Shown: positions 7,172-21,254 of the stretch, one piece after another | Layout of the letters: each line of letters begins with the position of its first letter | Position numbering within the stretch: the first letter of the stretch is position 1 | Origin: a virus | Direction: 5' to 3' (one strand) | IMG/VR virus record: IMGVR_UViG_3300025887_000166 | Location: 1 to 21,613 of that record | Length of the DNA: 21,613 nt | The notes under the pieces: generated by a model | The model's input: the letters and a program-made list of their open reading frames with translations, nothing else | What the model was told of the DNA's origin: nothing | Database searches by the model: none | Program-made: the position numbers and the translations under genes

Positions 7172-9490
7172 ATGGCCTCCATACAAGAAATCCGCAGTAA
7201 ATACCCTCAGTACAATGAAATGAGCGACGAGGATCTTGCGCTGGCGCTCCACGGCAAGTTTTACTCTGACATGGACTTCGGCGAGTTTTCAGAAAGGATC
7301 GGGCTTGCTCCCGCTCAAGAGGCTCCGACGATCCCCGAAGGCTCCACGCTGCTGAAGCAATACCCCGACGGCGGCTACATCACGCAGAACCGCAAGACGC
7401 GGCAGATGAATTATGTGAACCCTAACGACGCATATGTGACCGCCGACCAGGGCACAATCACCAGTATCATGCGTGAAGGCGGAGACGCTGCAAAAGTTGT
7501 CAAAGGCGAAATGTCTCGCGATGTCGTTGGCGAAGGCTTCACGTCGCTGGCCAGCGGGTTTGGTAAGGGTGTTCCATTTGCTCGCGGTTATGTTGAGCCA
7601 GCGATGGCCGCAGTGAACCCAAACATTAGCGAGGAGACTATCCGCGCAGCCATAGGGTCGCAGGAAGCAGAGTATCCGGCTTTGACGGGCGCCGCCCGTC
7701 TAGCCACCGGCGCGGCCACCGGCGTGGCGTCTGGAGCTGACCGCTTGATAAACGCACCAACGCGCATTGGACGTGCCGCACAGGCCATGGGCTTCGGCAC
7801 TGGCATAGGCGTCGCTGAAGGCGGGATTGCAGGTTACGGAGAAGGCGGCGCAGAAGAGGCGGCGCGGCAAGCGCAAGTCGGCGGCATGTTTGGTTTGTTC
7901 GCGGGGGCAGTCGCGCCTGCTATCGGGTCAATCGCCGGCGGCGTGAGCCGCTTTAAGGCTGAAATGCCGTTCCGCTCGGACATTAATAAGATCGGCGCCA
8001 AGGGCGACGCTAAGCGACTGATAAAAGACGCCGTGGAAGCTGACGGCGTCGGCGCCGCCGCCGCGGCCAACACGCCTTACGGAAACATAGCAACGCTCGG
8101 CCCTAATATGTCGAACCTACTTGACGTCGTGGCGAATACTCCGGGCAAGGGTGCGGCAGTGGTACGCTCGAACCTCAACGAAACGTCTCTGGCCGCGTCG
8201 CAAGATCTGTCGAGAACGCTGGACGATGTCCTTGGCGAGGTTACATCTGGCAAGATTGGCCAGAAGGCCGGCATCATGGCGGACACGGCTGCGGCTCGCA
8301 AGGAGCTGTACGGTAGCGCGTACACCGCCCAGATAACTCCTGGCGAAGACGCGTCCGACGTAGTTCTAGACCTATACACCCGAGTGTCTCCAGATGACTT
8401 GACCGGCGCCACAACACTGATGCGTGAAGCGGGAGGGGAGTTTGACTACATGGTGCCGACGCGCGTCAGCGAAGAGCAGGCCAACAAGATACTGAGCAGC
8501 AAAAACGGCGTGAACATAACTTACGACGTCGACGGAAACTACATCGCCATGCGGACGCCGACAGTCGAGACGCTGGACTACGTCACGCGCCGGCTGCACA
8601 GCCGCGCCCAAGAGCTCAAGCGATCTGGCGACATCGAGGGATACCGCTCCAAGACTGCTCTGGCCATTCAGATGCGCAACGCGCTTGACGAAGTCAGCCC
8701 AGATTATGGAGCGGCGCGCGCTGCGGGCAAAGATGCCATTGACCAGAAGATCGCGGCAGACCTTGGCAACGACTTGCTGAGCCCGTCTGTGACGCGCGAG
8801 GAGGTGCAGATCGCACTGGACGTCATGGGGCCAACTGAGCTCAATCAAGTCAGAACTGCGCTGAGAAACCGCCTAGACGAAATCGCGGCAAACGCGAAGG
8901 TCAACCCAACAAAGCGCACCGACGCTGAAGTGGTTGAGGCGCTGGCGCAGCTGAAGGCGATGAATACTCGGGCCGTGGCCACAAAGATGCAAATGGTTCT
9001 GGGCGACGTTGGCTTCGAGAAGATGTCGAATAAGATCCGGGAAGCCAGCGACGCAATGATTATGGCAGCCTCTGTTGCTCAAAACTCGAAGACAGCAATA
9101 CGCCAGGCGGTGCAGAAGCGCTTTGAGGAGTTAATCACCCCGACGATGGGTGAGCGCATTGGTCAGCAGGGGTTGCTGGGCGCGCCGACCGCGATGGCGT
9201 CTGACCTACTGCTGGCTGGAGGCGGCCAAGCGGATCGCATCCGCGCGGCTCAAGAGCAGCTGGCGCCAATCCTATCTCGCCGCATGACGCCGGACGACTT
9301 AATGCGCCAGGCGCAGGCTATGGAGCGCGCAGCTCCGGGAATACAGGCAGCCAGAGAGACAGGGGAAGCGACAAAGAGCAACGTCATAAGCGGGCTTCTC
9401 GGCGCGGGAGCGTCAGCGCAGGCAGCCGGCGTGCAGCCTCCAGTCGACCCTTCTCAGGATCTGCTAAGGATGTTCGCCGGCCCCCGCTAA
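7172..9490 (+). CDS. Large candidate DNA-ejection / internal virion protein C
   Basis: Encodes 772 aa. The first 45 residues match the recurring phage N-terminus 'IRSKYPQYNEMSDEDLALALHGKFYSDMDFGEF'-type motif (only short parts quoted: KYPQY, SDEDLA, KFYSDM). Residues about 165-260 are a Gly/Ala-rich amphipathic and hydrophobic stretch that could insert into membranes, as expected for proteins forming the trans-envelope ejection channel. The remainder is long, helical and charged. No lytic transglycosylase motif was seen. It ends the plus-strand virion block and converges, 3 nt apart, on the minus-strand gene at 9494. Confidence 0.6.
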   Translation: MASIQEIRSKYPQYNEMSDEDLALALHGKFYSDMDFGEFSERIGLAPAQEAPTIPEGSTLLKQYPDGGYITQNRKTRQMNYVNPNDAYVTADQGTITSIMREGGDAAKVVKGEMSRDVVGEGFTSLASGFGKGVPFARGYVEPAMAAVNPNISEETIRAAIGSQEAEYPALTGAARLATGAATGVASGADRLINAPTRIGRAAQAMGFGTGIGVAEGGIAGYGEGGAEEAARQAQVGGMFGLFAGAVAPAIGSIAGGVSRFKAEMPFRSDINKIGAKGDAKRLIKDAVEADGVGAAAAANTPYGNIATLGPNMSNLLDVVANTPGKGAAVVRSNLNETSLAASQDLSRTLDDVLGEVTSGKIGQKAGIMADTAAARKELYGSAYTAQITPGEDASDVVLDLYTRVSPDDLTGATTLMREAGGEFDYMVPTRVSEEQANKILSSKNGVNITYDVDGNYIAMRTPTVETLDYVTRRLHSRAQELKRSGDIEGYRSKTALAIQMRNALDEVSPDYGAARAAGKDAIDQKIAADLGNDLLSPSVTREEVQIALDVMGPTELNQVRTALRNRLDEIAANAKVNPTKRTDAEVVEALAQLKAMNTRAVATKMQMVLGDVGFEKMSNKIREASDAMIMAASVAQNSKTAIRQAVQKRFEELITPTMGERIGQQGLLGAPTAMASDLLLAGGGQADRIRAAQEQLAPILSRRMTPDDLMRQAQAMERAAPGIQAARETGEATKSNVISGLLGAGASAQAAGVQPPVDPSQDLLRMFAGPR

Positions 9491-9493
9491 ACG

Positions 9494-9694
9494 CTACTTC
9501 TTAGCAGCTTTTTTAGGCGCAGTCTTAGCGGGCTGCGCCTTCAGCGTGTCCGCCGCCAGCTGGTGCAGCTGAGCCGACTGCTCCTGTATAATCGTGGCCG
9601 CCTGTTCGCAGAATTTGAACAGCGCCATGATGTTTGTCACGCGGTGCGGATTGTTGAGATTGCGCACCAGTTCTTTCGTTTGGTCGTCGAGCAT
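9494..9694 (-). CDS. Small Lys-tailed protein, antisense between two plus-strand blocks
   Basis: Encodes 66 aa from the ATG at 9694, chosen because GGAGGA lies 4 nt upstream; in-frame ATGs 12 and 21 bases further up lack such a site. The body is helical and acidic-amphipathic (ELVRNLNNPHRV, QLHQLAADTL), and the last 14 residues are Ala/Pro/Lys-rich (KTAPKKAAKK) like a histone tail, suggesting nucleic-acid contact. Its stop faces the stop of the 772-aa gene with 3 nt between. It stands alone on the minus strand, so it should have its own promoter in the divergent region 9695-9822. Function unknown. Confidence 0.65.
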   Translation of the reverse strand: MLDDQTKELVRNLNNPHRVTNIMALFKFCEQAATIIQEQSAQLHQLAADTLKAQPAKTAPKKAAKK

Positions 9695-9822
9695 GTGATC
9701 CTCCATGAATGTCACCCTGGCACCCTATAACATTTTTTTCGCTTTGTGAACATTTTGTGCTTGCAAGGGGTGTGTGTTACCCCTATGTTAACAATATAGA
9801 CAGAAACAAGGGAGAAACGGAC
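9695..9822. promoter_or_regulatory. Divergent intergenic region with candidate plus-strand promoter
   Basis: This is an AT-rich gap between divergent genes. A plus-strand candidate is TTGCAA (9761-9766), a 17-nt spacer, and TATGTT (9784-9789). The spacer contains the inverted repeat GGGGT-(7 nt)-ACCCC, which could be an operator. The palindrome TGTTAACA occupies 9786-9793, about 29 nt before the start codon at 9823. AAGGGAGA at 9808-9815 is a good ribosome-binding site. A minus-strand promoter for the gene at 9494 is expected, but I could not place one convincingly. Confidence 0.4.
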
Positions 9823-10050
9823 ATGCAAACTAACGAGCAAAAAACTTCAGAAATCAACAAGTTGAACAAGTCTCAACGCGCTACTATGAAGTCATTGTGG
9901 AATGGTCGTAAGATCGGCATGATCCTTGTTAAAGATGTCCTTGATAACAATTACCCAACTGTCCAAGTGAAAGACGATGCAAATTTGTGGCTGACCGCGC
10001 ACCTTGGCCCCAAAGGCGCCATATATTCCAAGCGCTTTGAGAAGATTTAA
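9823..10050 (+). CDS. Hypothetical early protein, 75 aa
   Basis: Starts at the ATG 7 nt after GGGAGA; earlier in-frame starts lie within the promoter-like region. The N-terminal 20 residues are polar (Asn, Lys, Gln), then SQRATMKSLWNGRKIG and an 'ILVKDVLDNNYPTVQVKDDANLW' region that looks like a mixed alpha/beta domain, ending in basic residues. It is the first gene of the plus-strand accessory cluster and is followed by the 10057-10085 hairpin element. No family recognised. Confidence 0.7.
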   Translation: MQTNEQKTSEINKLNKSQRATMKSLWNGRKIGMILVKDVLDNNYPTVQVKDDANLWLTAHLGPKGAIYSKRFEKI

Positions 10051-17221: not shown

Positions 17222-19417
17222 ATGAGCGAGAGATACTTTAGCAAAGTCGCGGAGAGCGCAGTGGCCGACGTGGCCGGTGCGATCAAGGGGAGCCGCAACG
17301 AAATTTTAAACAAGGCCGCATTCAGCCTGGGCCGCCACGCGCACATGGCGCCGGCAAACCTGGACGCGGCACTCATGGAGCTGCACAGCGCGGCCAAGGC
17401 AATGGGCCTGCAAGATCACGAGATCAAGGCTACAATCGGCAGCGGCTTCAAGCGCGGCGGCGACAATCCGAAGGAGCTCGAAAGCTCCGACGCGATGCCG
17501 TACACGCCCAGCGAGTTCGAGCGCCTCATGGCGCGCCTGGCCGCTAAGGAAGTGCTGGCGAGGGACGACGAGACCCGCGCGGACAAGATGCGCAAGGCCC
17601 GCGAAATCTGGGAGCGCGGCGTCACGATTTCGCGTGACAACACCGACGCCGTGCGTCCGGCGCTGCTCTACCTCAACTCGAGGGGTCTGAGAGCCAGCAC
17701 AGCCTCACATGCGGCGCGGTTCAACCCGAACATATACGACGGCCCCGCAATTATGTTTCCCGCGCTCAGTCCAGAGGGAGAAGTGTGCGGCGTGCAGAGC
17801 GTGCTGCTCACACCCGACGGCCACAAGCGAGAGCACAACGGCATCAGCAAATACAGCCGCGGCGTGATCGCCGGCAACGTCATGCGGATCGGCAACGAGC
17901 ACGAGGGCGGCGTCATCATCATGGCCGAGGGGCCGGAGGACGCGCTCAGCGTGTACCAGGCGGTCGGCGACGAGGCGACAATCGTCTGCACGTTCGGCAA
18001 GGCTGGCATGTCAACATATCCCGTGCCGCGTGCGTCCGACGTGACGATCTGCGCCGACCCGGATCTCGACGTTGACGCGGTGGCCGACGTGCTCCGCGGC
18101 GACGGCAGCACCGACGTGCACGTCGTGCGCTTCGACATGCTGGGCGTTGAGGGCGTCAAGGATGCCAACGACTACATCCGCGAGGCTGGGGCGCAGAAAT
18201 TGCGTGAGGCATTGGCGATGGCAAAGCCGGTCGCGCAGGTGCAGGCCGAGATCGCGCAGTCCGAGCGCAGCTACCCGACGCCATATGATCCCGTTGACCC
18301 GGCAAGCATACCGGCGCGGCGCTGGATCTACGGCCAGCACTACATCCGATCAAACGTGTCCGTGCTGGCGTCAGCCGGGGGCGTGGGCAAGACGTCCATG
18401 CAAATCGTGGAGGCGCTGGCAATTTGCACCGGCCGTCCGCTGCTCGGTGAGCCCGTGCACGAGCCGTGCAACGTGTGGATCATCAACTTGGAAGACCCAT
18501 ACGAGGAGCTCCAGCGGCGTGTGGCCGCGGCTATGCTGCACTACAACGTCACGGCAGACGAGATCCGGGGCAAGCTGTTCCTCGACGCGGGCCGCGACAT
18601 GAACATCATCTTCGCCAGGCAAGACCGCGACGGCATCACAGTCGACGACGCGCTGGTCGACTACCTGACGGCCAAGATTACGGAGAACAAGATCGGGCTG
18701 GTCAGCATCGACCCGTGGGTCGGGGCGACTGGCATACAGGAGAACGACAACGTCGCAATGAACGCAGCCGTCGGGGCCGTGCGCTCCGTGTGCGACGAGA
18801 CGGACTGCGCCGCGTCACTCGTTCACCACATCCGCAAGGGCAACGGAGATGACGCCAACGTCGACAGCATTCGCGGCGCCGGATCATTGCTCGGCGCAGC
18901 AAGAGCGGCGCGCGTCATCAACCGCGTGTCGCAGGAGGACGCGCTCAAGCTGGGCGTGTCGGAGACCGAGGCGCTGGGCATCTTCCGGGTGGACGACGGC
19001 AAGTCGAACATGGCTCCGCCGGCATCGAAGGCAGTGTACCGGCGCATGGTCGGCGTGAAATTGCCGAACGGGGAATACGTCGGGGTCGCGACCGAGTTCG
19101 CGATGCCTGACCTCTTCGACGGGGTGAGCGCCAAGGACGCGATGAAGGTGCAGCGTGACGTCGGGCAGGCGGCCGAGCGCGGCGAGTTCATGCGCCAGAA
19201 CCCGCAGGCTAAGCACTGGGTGGGCAACATCGTGGCGCTGCACCTTAACCTCGACGTCGACAAGAAGCATGAGAAGGCTAAGGTCAACGCAATCGTGAAG
19301 AAGTGGATCGAGACCGACGTGCTGCGCATCGAGCGCGAGAAGGATCTGCGCACTGGGCGTGACGTGCCGGTGGTCGTCGTGGGTGAGTGGATCACCGGCG
19401 AGGAGGCGGGCGTTTGA
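17222..19417 (+). CDS. Toprim primase - RepA-like hexameric helicase
   Basis: Encodes 731 aa from the ATG after AGGGTGG; an upstream in-frame ATG at 17177 lies inside the hairpin region and has no ribosome-binding site. N-terminal helical domain: 'NEILNKAAFSLGRHAHMAP'-like segment. Middle Toprim domain: Glu236 in 'IIMAEGPEDALS', Asp279-x-Asp281 in 'ICADPDLD', then 'KDANDYI'. C-terminal RecA-fold ATPase: Walker A 'AGGVGKTS' (about 385-392), Walker B 'LVSIDPW' with Asp497, and 'VHHIRKG' near 534-540. It would unwind DNA and may synthesise primers, although the N-terminal zinc finger of T7 gp4-type primases is not evident. It is the central replication protein of the window. Confidence 0.88.
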   Translation: MSERYFSKVAESAVADVAGAIKGSRNEILNKAAFSLGRHAHMAPANLDAALMELHSAAKAMGLQDHEIKATIGSGFKRGGDNPKELESSDAMPYTPSEFERLMARLAAKEVLARDDETRADKMRKAREIWERGVTISRDNTDAVRPALLYLNSRGLRASTASHAARFNPNIYDGPAIMFPALSPEGEVCGVQSVLLTPDGHKREHNGISKYSRGVIAGNVMRIGNEHEGGVIIMAEGPEDALSVYQAVGDEATIVCTFGKAGMSTYPVPRASDVTICADPDLDVDAVADVLRGDGSTDVHVVRFDMLGVEGVKDANDYIREAGAQKLREALAMAKPVAQVQAEIAQSERSYPTPYDPVDPASIPARRWIYGQHYIRSNVSVLASAGGVGKTSMQIVEALAICTGRPLLGEPVHEPCNVWIINLEDPYEELQRRVAAAMLHYNVTADEIRGKLFLDAGRDMNIIFARQDRDGITVDDALVDYLTAKITENKIGLVSIDPWVGATGIQENDNVAMNAAVGAVRSVCDETDCAASLVHHIRKGNGDDANVDSIRGAGSLLGAARAARVINRVSQEDALKLGVSETEALGIFRVDDGKSNMAPPASKAVYRRMVGVKLPNGEYVGVATEFAMPDLFDGVSAKDAMKVQRDVGQAAERGEFMRQNPQAKHWVGNIVALHLNLDVDKKHEKAKVNAIVKKWIETDVLRIEREKDLRTGRDVPVVVVGEWITGEEAGV

Positions 19418-19665
19418 CCGAATTCGATGACAGTGGCGACATGAACCTCGAGGACGAGGATCTCATCATGGCGGTCTACTGGTCCGACATACTGCGCGCC
19501 TGCGCCATCGAGTTCGAGCCGGGGCTCATGCAGCCGCGCACCGTCGAGGAGCGGATGCGCGTGCAGGAGATCATCGTGGCAACCATGCAGTGTCTGGAAC
19601 ACGCGCTGCTGCGGCTTGATGACCAGATAACGGGGGTGAGGAGCGATGCAGATGTGTTGCATTAA
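19414..19665 (+). CDS. Small acidic hypothetical protein after the helicase
   Basis: Encodes 83 aa from a TTG start overlapping the helicase stop (TTGA), with GAGGAGG about 8 nt upstream; the ATG at 19441 is an alternative. The N-terminus is strongly acidic (EFDDSGDMNLEDEDLI) and the rest is helical (AVYWSDILRACAIEF, EERMRVQEIIVATMQCLEHALL). It is the last gene before the GTGTGG repeat region. It may be a helicase-associated factor, but there is no recognisable domain. Confidence 0.6.
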   Translation: MTEFDDSGDMNLEDEDLIMAVYWSDILRACAIEFEPGLMQPRTVEERMRVQEIIVATMQCLEHALLRLDDQITGVRSDADVLH

Positions 19666-19836
19666 TGCTTCCACACCTTCCACACATGGGGTGTGGGGAG
19701 GTGTGGAGAGTGTGGTAAATAAGGCCATTTCACCTCCCACACCACCACACGCTATTGTATAGCGTGGTGGTGTGGTGGTGTGGCGTGCGTGAGATTTTAG
19801 GTGTGGTTAACATTAGGGACGAAGGGGAGTTATATC
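19666..19836. other. Non-coding region of nested GTGTGG/CCACAC inverted repeats
   Basis: Ten copies of GTGTGG or its complement CCACAC lie at 19671, 19680, 19691, 19701, 19710, 19737, 19745, 19770, 19778 and 19801. They build hairpin A (19671-19706; CCACACCT/AGGTGTGG plus TCCACAC/GTGTGGG, loop ATGGG) and hairpin B (19737-19775; CCACACCACCAC/GTGGTGGTGTGG plus GCTAT/ATAGC with a 2-nt bulge and loop TGT). The strands GTGTGGGGAGGTG (19691-19703) and CACCTCCCACAC (19731-19742) can also pair with each other and would disrupt both hairpins. A palindrome-related GGTTAACA lies at 19805-19812 and AAGGGGAG at 19822 serves the next gene. Candidates are a replication origin, a packaging site or an attenuator. 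Confidence 0.75.
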
Positions 19837-20913: not shown

Positions 20914-20989
20914 GCGCGAAATCGCACATCGACGCAGCGTTGCAGGCGCGTACGCGCGTGACACGATCTCGCCGATCAGTCAACATATC

Positions 20990-21025
20990 GCCACATTTGG
21001 GCACTTTTGGGCGTTCAAATGTGGC
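20990..21025 (+). other. 10-bp stem hairpin between terminase genes
   Basis: GCCACATTTG (20990-20999) pairs perfectly with CAAATGTGGC (21016-21025) around a 16-nt loop containing TTTTGGGC. There is no T-run after the stem. It carries CCACA/TGTGG as in the 19671-19806 region, though with different flanks. It may be a terminator-like or processing hairpin after the small terminase, or a protein-binding palindrome. Confidence 0.6.
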
Positions 21026-21067
21026 AGAAGTAAGGCACAAGCAAGGCAAAACAGCTAAGCTGCTGAG

Positions 21068-21096
21068 TTGCAACGATAAAAGATTTAACATAATAA
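21068..21096 (+). promoter_or_regulatory. Candidate promoter for the large terminase gene
   Basis: TTGCAA (21068-21073) is followed after 15 nt by CATAAT (21089-21094) or after 17 nt by TAATAA (21091-21096). The same -35-like hexamer TTGCAA occurs in the candidate promoter at 9761. The stretch is clearly more AT-rich than its surroundings. Neither spacing and -10 combination is a perfect match, so confidence is limited. Confidence 0.35.
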
Positions 21097-21254
21097 CGGT
21101 TATGACTCTTTCGCCAGCTCTGAGGCCAAATCGCTGCCGAGATCCGCGTTTTGACCCCCCCCTCTCAAATCTCGGGCGGGTGCAAAAGCTCATGTCCCCT
21201 TCACGCACCCCGAGAAAAAAATTTCACACCACAACGCCACAGGAGTGTTAACAC

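Follow-up and report, generated by a model that had tools for sequence, protein, structure and literature searches.

We analysed the whole of virus record IMGVR_UViG_3300025887_000166 in IMG/VR, a stretch of 21,613 bases (hereafter the window) that is a fragment of a tailed-phage genome. In the part that concerns us here, with families assigned by Pfam and PHROG, it encodes from left to right an exonuclease, an open reading frame (ORF), a primase-helicase of 731 amino acids, a small ORF, an ORF of 201 amino acids (orf19837), a small terminase subunit (TerS) with an Sf6-like family match and the start of the large terminase subunit (TerL). Between the small ORF and orf19837 lies a dense array of the hexamer GTGTGG/CCACAC (Table 1), which an earlier note on this DNA had read as a possible replication origin, packaging site or attenuator. 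The protein domains, the covariation described below and analogy with known replicons support the first of these roles, while packaging is disfavoured and attenuation is unsupported. Comparing sequences and known systems, we consider it probable (roughly 0.86) that the array is the replication origin of the phage, with the hexamers acting as iterons bound by the phage's own primase-helicase.

A conserved hexamer array upstream of the terminase genes

All ten exact hexamer copies that had been counted within 136 bp are present, starting at positions 19671, 19680, 19691, 19701, 19710, 19737, 19745, 19770, 19778 and 19801. No more than three copies fell within 136 bp in any of 300 Markov-shuffled versions of the whole window, and the best count reached by any hexamer at all in 100 shuffles was seven. 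Multiple short repeats near an initiator gene, the arrangement found here, are one mark of iteron origins. The region folds far more stably than its shuffled controls, on either strand and as RNA or DNA (z = -4.3, -5.5 and -6.0).

Related phages carry the array as well. Thirty-one viral contigs encode the 201-amino-acid ORF, and the array is present in all 30 that extend far enough upstream. Among 26 close relatives, mean column identity is 99.5% in the hexamers versus 85% in the spacers between them. Overall, the array is kept in 104 distinct relatives, or 133 when a held-out set is included, and the repeats were present in every relative that had the two flanking genes with the region between them intact.

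Three pairings had been proposed within the array, namely hairpins A and B and a longer pairing that would exclude both. Hairpin B (19737-19775, 17 pairs with a 2-nt bulge) is present, and its tip shows clean compensatory change. In the 89 of 104 arrays that met our search criteria, the tip occurs as 20 distinct sequences. Its six inner pairs (pairs between hexamers excluded) are 100% complementary, compared with a mean of 43% and a maximum of 68% when partners are shuffled, a contrast that is partly built in because the criteria demanded five pairs, whereas the diversity of the arm sequences is not. Hairpin A (19671-19706) is also present as a structure, but its spacers drift and show no more covariation than shuffled sequences. 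The third pairing joins 19691-19703 to 19731-19742 through 12 pairs and a one-base bulge. It shows one compensated change at the level of a clade, yet in 11 of 25 sequences its inner pair is disrupted. Clear compensation is thus confined to hairpin B. Fixed sites at a fixed spacing, with spacers that are free to vary, are typical of DNA sites bound by a protein, and the centre of the array holds one real hairpin.

These observations bear directly on the suggestion that the leader of orf19837 forms an RNA attenuator or switch with mutually exclusive stems. Strong folding and the compensated change in the third pairing speak for such an element; however, hairpin A covaries no more than chance, the third pairing is inconsistently kept, a search of the array region against Rfam matched no family, and the hexamers track the predicted DNA-binding domain of a protein, as described below. 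We regard an attenuator as extremely improbable.

The hexamer itself differs between phages. A relative whose primase-helicase, 201-amino-acid ORF and TerL are about 70%, 54% and 85% identical to those of the window (L033) has the same layout with the hexamer GTGCGG/CCGCAC throughout. Across the 104 arrays the repeat follows the consensus CC-N-CA-C/G, realised as CCACAC (37 arrays), CCTCAG (21), CCGCAC (17), CCACAG (15), CCGCAG (7), CCTCAC (6) and CCCCAC (1). The copies within one phage largely change together: on average, 92% of the CCNCAS matches in an array agree at position 3 and 83% equal the majority hexamer, counts that take in chance matches between the true sites.

Two kinds of array depart from this clean picture. 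A few (L074, L076 and L078/L314) carry mixed or degenerate hexamers, including CCTAAC and CCTCAC, and are perhaps caught between two specificities. In one contig (L094/L298) the left half is lost and part of the central hairpin remains with the right-hand sites, which may be an assembly artefact.

Two residues of the primase-helicase follow two bases of the repeat

Hexamer positions 3 and 6 were compared with 1545 alignment columns of the primase-helicase, orf19837, TerS and TerL, with similar sequences down-weighted. For position 6, the top-scoring column is residue 662 of the primase-helicase, with a normalised mutual information of 1.00 (next column, 0.48). For position 3, it is residue 711 of the same protein (0.83), followed by residue 708 (0.57), with all remaining columns at 0.46 or below. 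Residue 662 is Q in 59 of 59 phages with CCNCAC and R in 41 of 41 with CCNCAG. Residue 711 is T, A or H in all 51 phages with A at position 3, Q in all 25 with T and D in all 23 with G; the sole CCCCAC phage combines Q711 with A708.

This rule was written down before new loci were fetched. Applied unchanged, it gave both positions correctly in 29 of 29 held-out arrays, for which the nearest domain in the training set was 68-99% identical. A search by DNA for one class of central hairpin yielded 35 contigs that carry the domain, all of which obey the rule; most of these had been met before and two were new. On a tree built without the C-terminal domain, the hexamer changes 16 times. Phylogenetically independent pairs agree in six of six cases for residue 662 and position 6 and in nine of nine for residue 711 and an A at position 3 (sign test p = 0.004). 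Four pairs could be compared for Q at 711, three of them concordant and one in which Q serves both T and C.

Two pairs of close relatives with different hexamers serve as natural experiments. Three differences separate L202 (CCGCAC) from L205 (CCACAC) in the last 130 residues, one of which is D711H. Between L143 and L144 (CCGCAG and CCACAG), orf19837, TerS and TerL are 97-100% identical and the C-terminal domain is 85% identical, which suggests that the domain and the array can be swapped together as a cassette. Common preferences between residues and bases include arginine with guanine, glutamine with an A opposite T, aspartate with a C opposite G, and threonine or alanine beside the methyl group of a T opposite A. 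The pairings seen at residues 662 and 711 appear consistent with these preferences.

The same comparison argues against the possibility that the orf19837 protein is a repressor or accessory initiator bound to the array, with the signal in the primase-helicase arising as a by-product of linkage. The gene adjoins the array in the relatives examined, but the scores of its best columns are 0.45 (position 3) and 0.34 (position 6), and the protein is 97% identical across the hexamer switch between L143 and L144. Its structure model, a helical core with a small mixed domain, gave no convincing match in structural comparison, DNA-binding folds included. We give this possibility almost no weight.

A primase-helicase with a C-terminal winged helix

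The primase-helicase has a marginal match to Toprim_3 (PF13362, residues 232-324; 27.8 bits against a cut-off of 27.2), together with primase matches in PHROG. Its helicase domain (residues 359-541) is of the RecA type, AAA_25 (PF13481, 131.5 bits), and no superfamily 3 (SF3)/D5-type or P4-type helicase family was matched in the Pfam search. The C-terminal domain is covered by no Pfam family, and a comparison with the sequences of solved structures found nothing relevant to it.

An AlphaFold2 model of residues 560-731 places helices at 637-652, 667-674 and 682-697 and strands at 701-707 and 714-720, in the order typical of a winged helix. Mean confidence (predicted local distance difference test, pLDDT) is 70.9 overall and about 80-90 over the winged-helix domain. 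The best structural matches of the domain are winged-helix domains, including those of RecQ, BLM, DnaD and repressors, with Z scores of up to 8.7, a range in which a common fold can be shared without kinship. In the model, residues 708-713 form the tip of the wing and residue 662 lies directly before the second helix, while the third helix is conserved across hexamer classes.

Packaging, regulation or replication

The position of the array just before the terminase genes, and the Sf6-like match of TerS, raise the possibility of a packaging start site (pac or cosB) bound by TerS; small terminases bind repeated sites. Several findings nevertheless make this very unlikely. The best TerS or TerL column scores 0.35-0.45, against 1.00 and 0.83 for the primase-helicase, and the hexamers of L143 and L144 differ even though their TerS proteins are 98% identical. 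In L129, L130 and most of the series L260-L276 (L260, L261, L262, L264, L270 and L276), a different terminase module, with TerL about 54-58% identical and TerS mostly undetected, stands next to arrays of the same class. The module is also replaced in L210, which widens the TerL range to about 54-61%, and throughout these phages the primase-helicase, the array and orf19837 have been retained. The assemblies of two genomes are circles that are closed away from the array and span the site, with end overlaps of 99 and 123 bases. Finally, in phiM5, which by TerL is the nearest of the isolates with mapped ends, a direct terminal repeat of 357 bp sits just before TerL.

A more serious alternative is that the primase-helicase binds the array as a control site, either to autoregulate transcription into orf19837 and the terminase genes or to govern copy number or incompatibility. 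An operon-like run of genes starts directly downstream of the array, with orf19837 next to it in the relatives examined, and covariation speaks for recognition only. Yet known self-initiating replicons (PMC4234260) are built in this way, with a fused primase-helicase whose winged helix binds several sites in an array that includes a hairpin, and four long genomes (G001-G004, about 37 kb) offer no other dense hexamer cluster as an origin. We consider a control site unlikely.

Binding of the array by the domain is what we infer from the covariation, and origin activity is inferred from the domains of the protein and the analogy with known replicons. It should be noted that some of our results weigh against an origin or temper the case for it. 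The covariation indicates that the domain reads the array, not that replication starts there, so that a control site of the same protein would give the same signal. GC skew, which had been suggested as a check, shows no inflection at the array in the four long genomes and follows gene direction. Only 6-9 independent pairs were available, the 100 phages include many close kin and fall into about 30 clusters at 90%, and the training and held-out sets were drawn from one collection. Residue 662 precedes helix 2 rather than lying within it, in a model of moderate overall confidence.

If the array is an origin, a plausible sequence of events can be proposed. The CC-N-CA-C/G hexamers would be bound as double-stranded DNA by the C-terminal winged helix of the primase-helicase encoded upstream, with residue 662 setting the base at position 6 and the wing residue 711, together with 708, the one at position 3. 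Conserved residues of this domain presumably recognise the constant CC and CA. Several copies of the protein would gather on 7-10 phased sites, in both orientations, around the central hairpin. The attached RecA-type helicase would thereby be positioned at the origin, open the DNA and be loaded. Primer synthesis by the attached Toprim primase may begin at the central hairpin, which might be extruded, or close to it.

Relation to known replicons

The closest parallel is the alpha protein of phage P4, whose single polypeptide carries a Toprim primase and a hexameric helicase as well as a winged helix at the C terminus for recognition of the origin repeats (Ziegelin and Lanka 1995; Yeo et al. 2002, as described in PMC4234260). 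The window protein likewise has Toprim primase and helicase domains fused to a winged helix at its C terminus, the P4 alpha domain having been compared by description only. Here, however, the helicase is AAA_25 and not SF3, the array lies 3' of the gene, the central hairpin covaries, and many repeat specificities occur with a readable residue code. Because of the helicase we do not assign the window protein to the P4 alpha family. These features suggest that primase, helicase and iteron binder are fused here around a helicase of the RecA type, where P4 alpha has one of the SF3 type.

ORF904 of pRN1 and its counterpart in Bordetella phage BIP-1 are also primase-helicases with a C-terminal winged helix, and their origin is, or is proposed to be, a stem-loop shortly after the replication gene; in pRN1 this stem-loop just 3' of the gene is essential (PMC4234260). 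The window phage shares this arrangement of protein and stem-loop, but has Toprim, AAA_25 and iterons where these replicons have an archaeo-eukaryotic primase, an SF3 helicase and no iterons. RSF1010 combines iterons with ssi hairpins, as the window array combines iterons with a hairpin, but there the iteron binder, helicase and primase that cooperate are three separate proteins (RepA/RepB'/RepC; PMC4234260) and here they are one.

The initiator of lambdoid phages offers a further comparison, sharing with the window protein the use of iterons by a phage initiator. It differs in that the O protein recruits the host helicase and its origin lies inside the O gene. O is described as a phage initiator that binds iterons in the replication module (PMC7466680, PMC4488673).

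In the PLE of Vibrio cholerae, an origin-directed nuclease has been proposed to drive a change of origin (PMC8263062, PMC7145576). By this analogy, such a nuclease is a candidate driver of origin switching in the phages studied here. The PLE initiator RepA_N differs from that of the window phage group in having no primase or helicase, two described origin types and no residue-to-base code.

More broadly, we tentatively suggest that a self-loading RecA-type primase-helicase carries a small, evolvable code (residues 662, 708 and 711), and that code and array have changed together again and again in phage populations as a means of avoiding cross-recognition by competitors, satellites or origin-directed nucleases, leading to mutually incompatible origin types within one phage family; we see this as possible, at somewhat less than even odds. 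A scan for one class of central dyad yielded no phage-free satellite with the array, only the same phage type or contigs too short to tell.

Based on these findings, a probable replication origin and the protein predicted to read it can be named from sequence alone for a large group of phages. Two bases of a repeated DNA site correspond to two or three amino acids in a natural and nearly deterministic way, with about 16 switches on the tree; to our knowledge, such correspondences are rare among winged-helix proteins and replication initiators. Questions that become testable include how an initiator and its 7-10 sites change together, whether origins with different codes are incompatible, and what drives the switching.

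Neighbouring genes and related phages

Table 1. Positions of the genes, codons and array elements discussed in the text.
Feature	Position in window	Strand	Observations and basis
Primase-helicase gene, 731 aa	17222..19417	+	DUF7146, Toprim_3, AAA_25 and C-terminal winged-helix domain; proposed origin-binding initiator (Pfam/PHROG, covariation with array)
C-terminal winged-helix domain, residues about 637-720	19130..19381	+	Proposed hexamer reader (AlphaFold2 model, structural matches)
Codon 662 (Gln)	19205..19207	+	Hexamer position 6: Q with C, R with G; 100/100 phages, 29/29 held out
Codon 708 (Asp), wing	19343..19345	+	Ranks second among the columns for hexamer position 3; the single CCCCAC phage has A
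Codon 711 (Thr), wing	19352..19354	+	Hexamer position 3: T/A/H with A, Q with T or C, D with G; 100/100 phages, 29/29 held out
Small ORF between primase-helicase and array	19387..19665	+	Divergent; not detected in every relative
Iteron array, ten GTGTGG/CCACAC sites	19671..19806	.	Proposed replication origin (site counts, conservation, shuffles)
Two left-arm iterons CCACAC (19671-19676, 19680-19685)	19671..19685	-	Exact matches
Three iterons GTGTGG (19691, 19701, 19710)	19691..19715	+	Site-to-site spacing of 9-11 bp preserved in close relatives
GGCCATTTCAC block	19723..19733	+	Nearly invariant across 26 close relatives
Central element: inverted iterons 19737, 19745 (minus) and 19770, 19778 (plus) flanking hairpin	19737..19783	.	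Contains hairpin B
Central hairpin tip CGCTATTGTATAGCG	19750..19764	.	Dyad preserved while sequence varies
Last iteron and GTTAACATT box	19801..19814	+	Invariant across 26 close relatives
orf19837, 201 aa	19837..20442	+	3' of array in relatives examined; hexamer not tracked

The phages that bear the array form a large, uncultured and mostly marine group, and the phage collection that we searched contained no close relative from culture. In that collection neither the array region (as DNA) nor orf19837 had a match, and orf19837 also matched nothing in Pfam, PHROG or NCBIfam. The primase-helicase gave partial matches only, the best being to Rhizobium phage RHph_X2_26, whose protein has a different C terminus and which has no array. 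Two contigs with TerL 84-85% identical to that of the window's phage group (L033 and L034) sit in assemblies labelled Opitutae and Desulfuromonadales, and are probably misbinned phage contigs.

TerS and TerL are separated by a gap of 341 bp (20914-21254), in or near which several related contigs seem to end. A second block conserved at the DNA level lies at 9482-9825, where the window is 81% identical to another genome of the group; it spans a small gene on the minus strand and the adjoining intergenic stretch.
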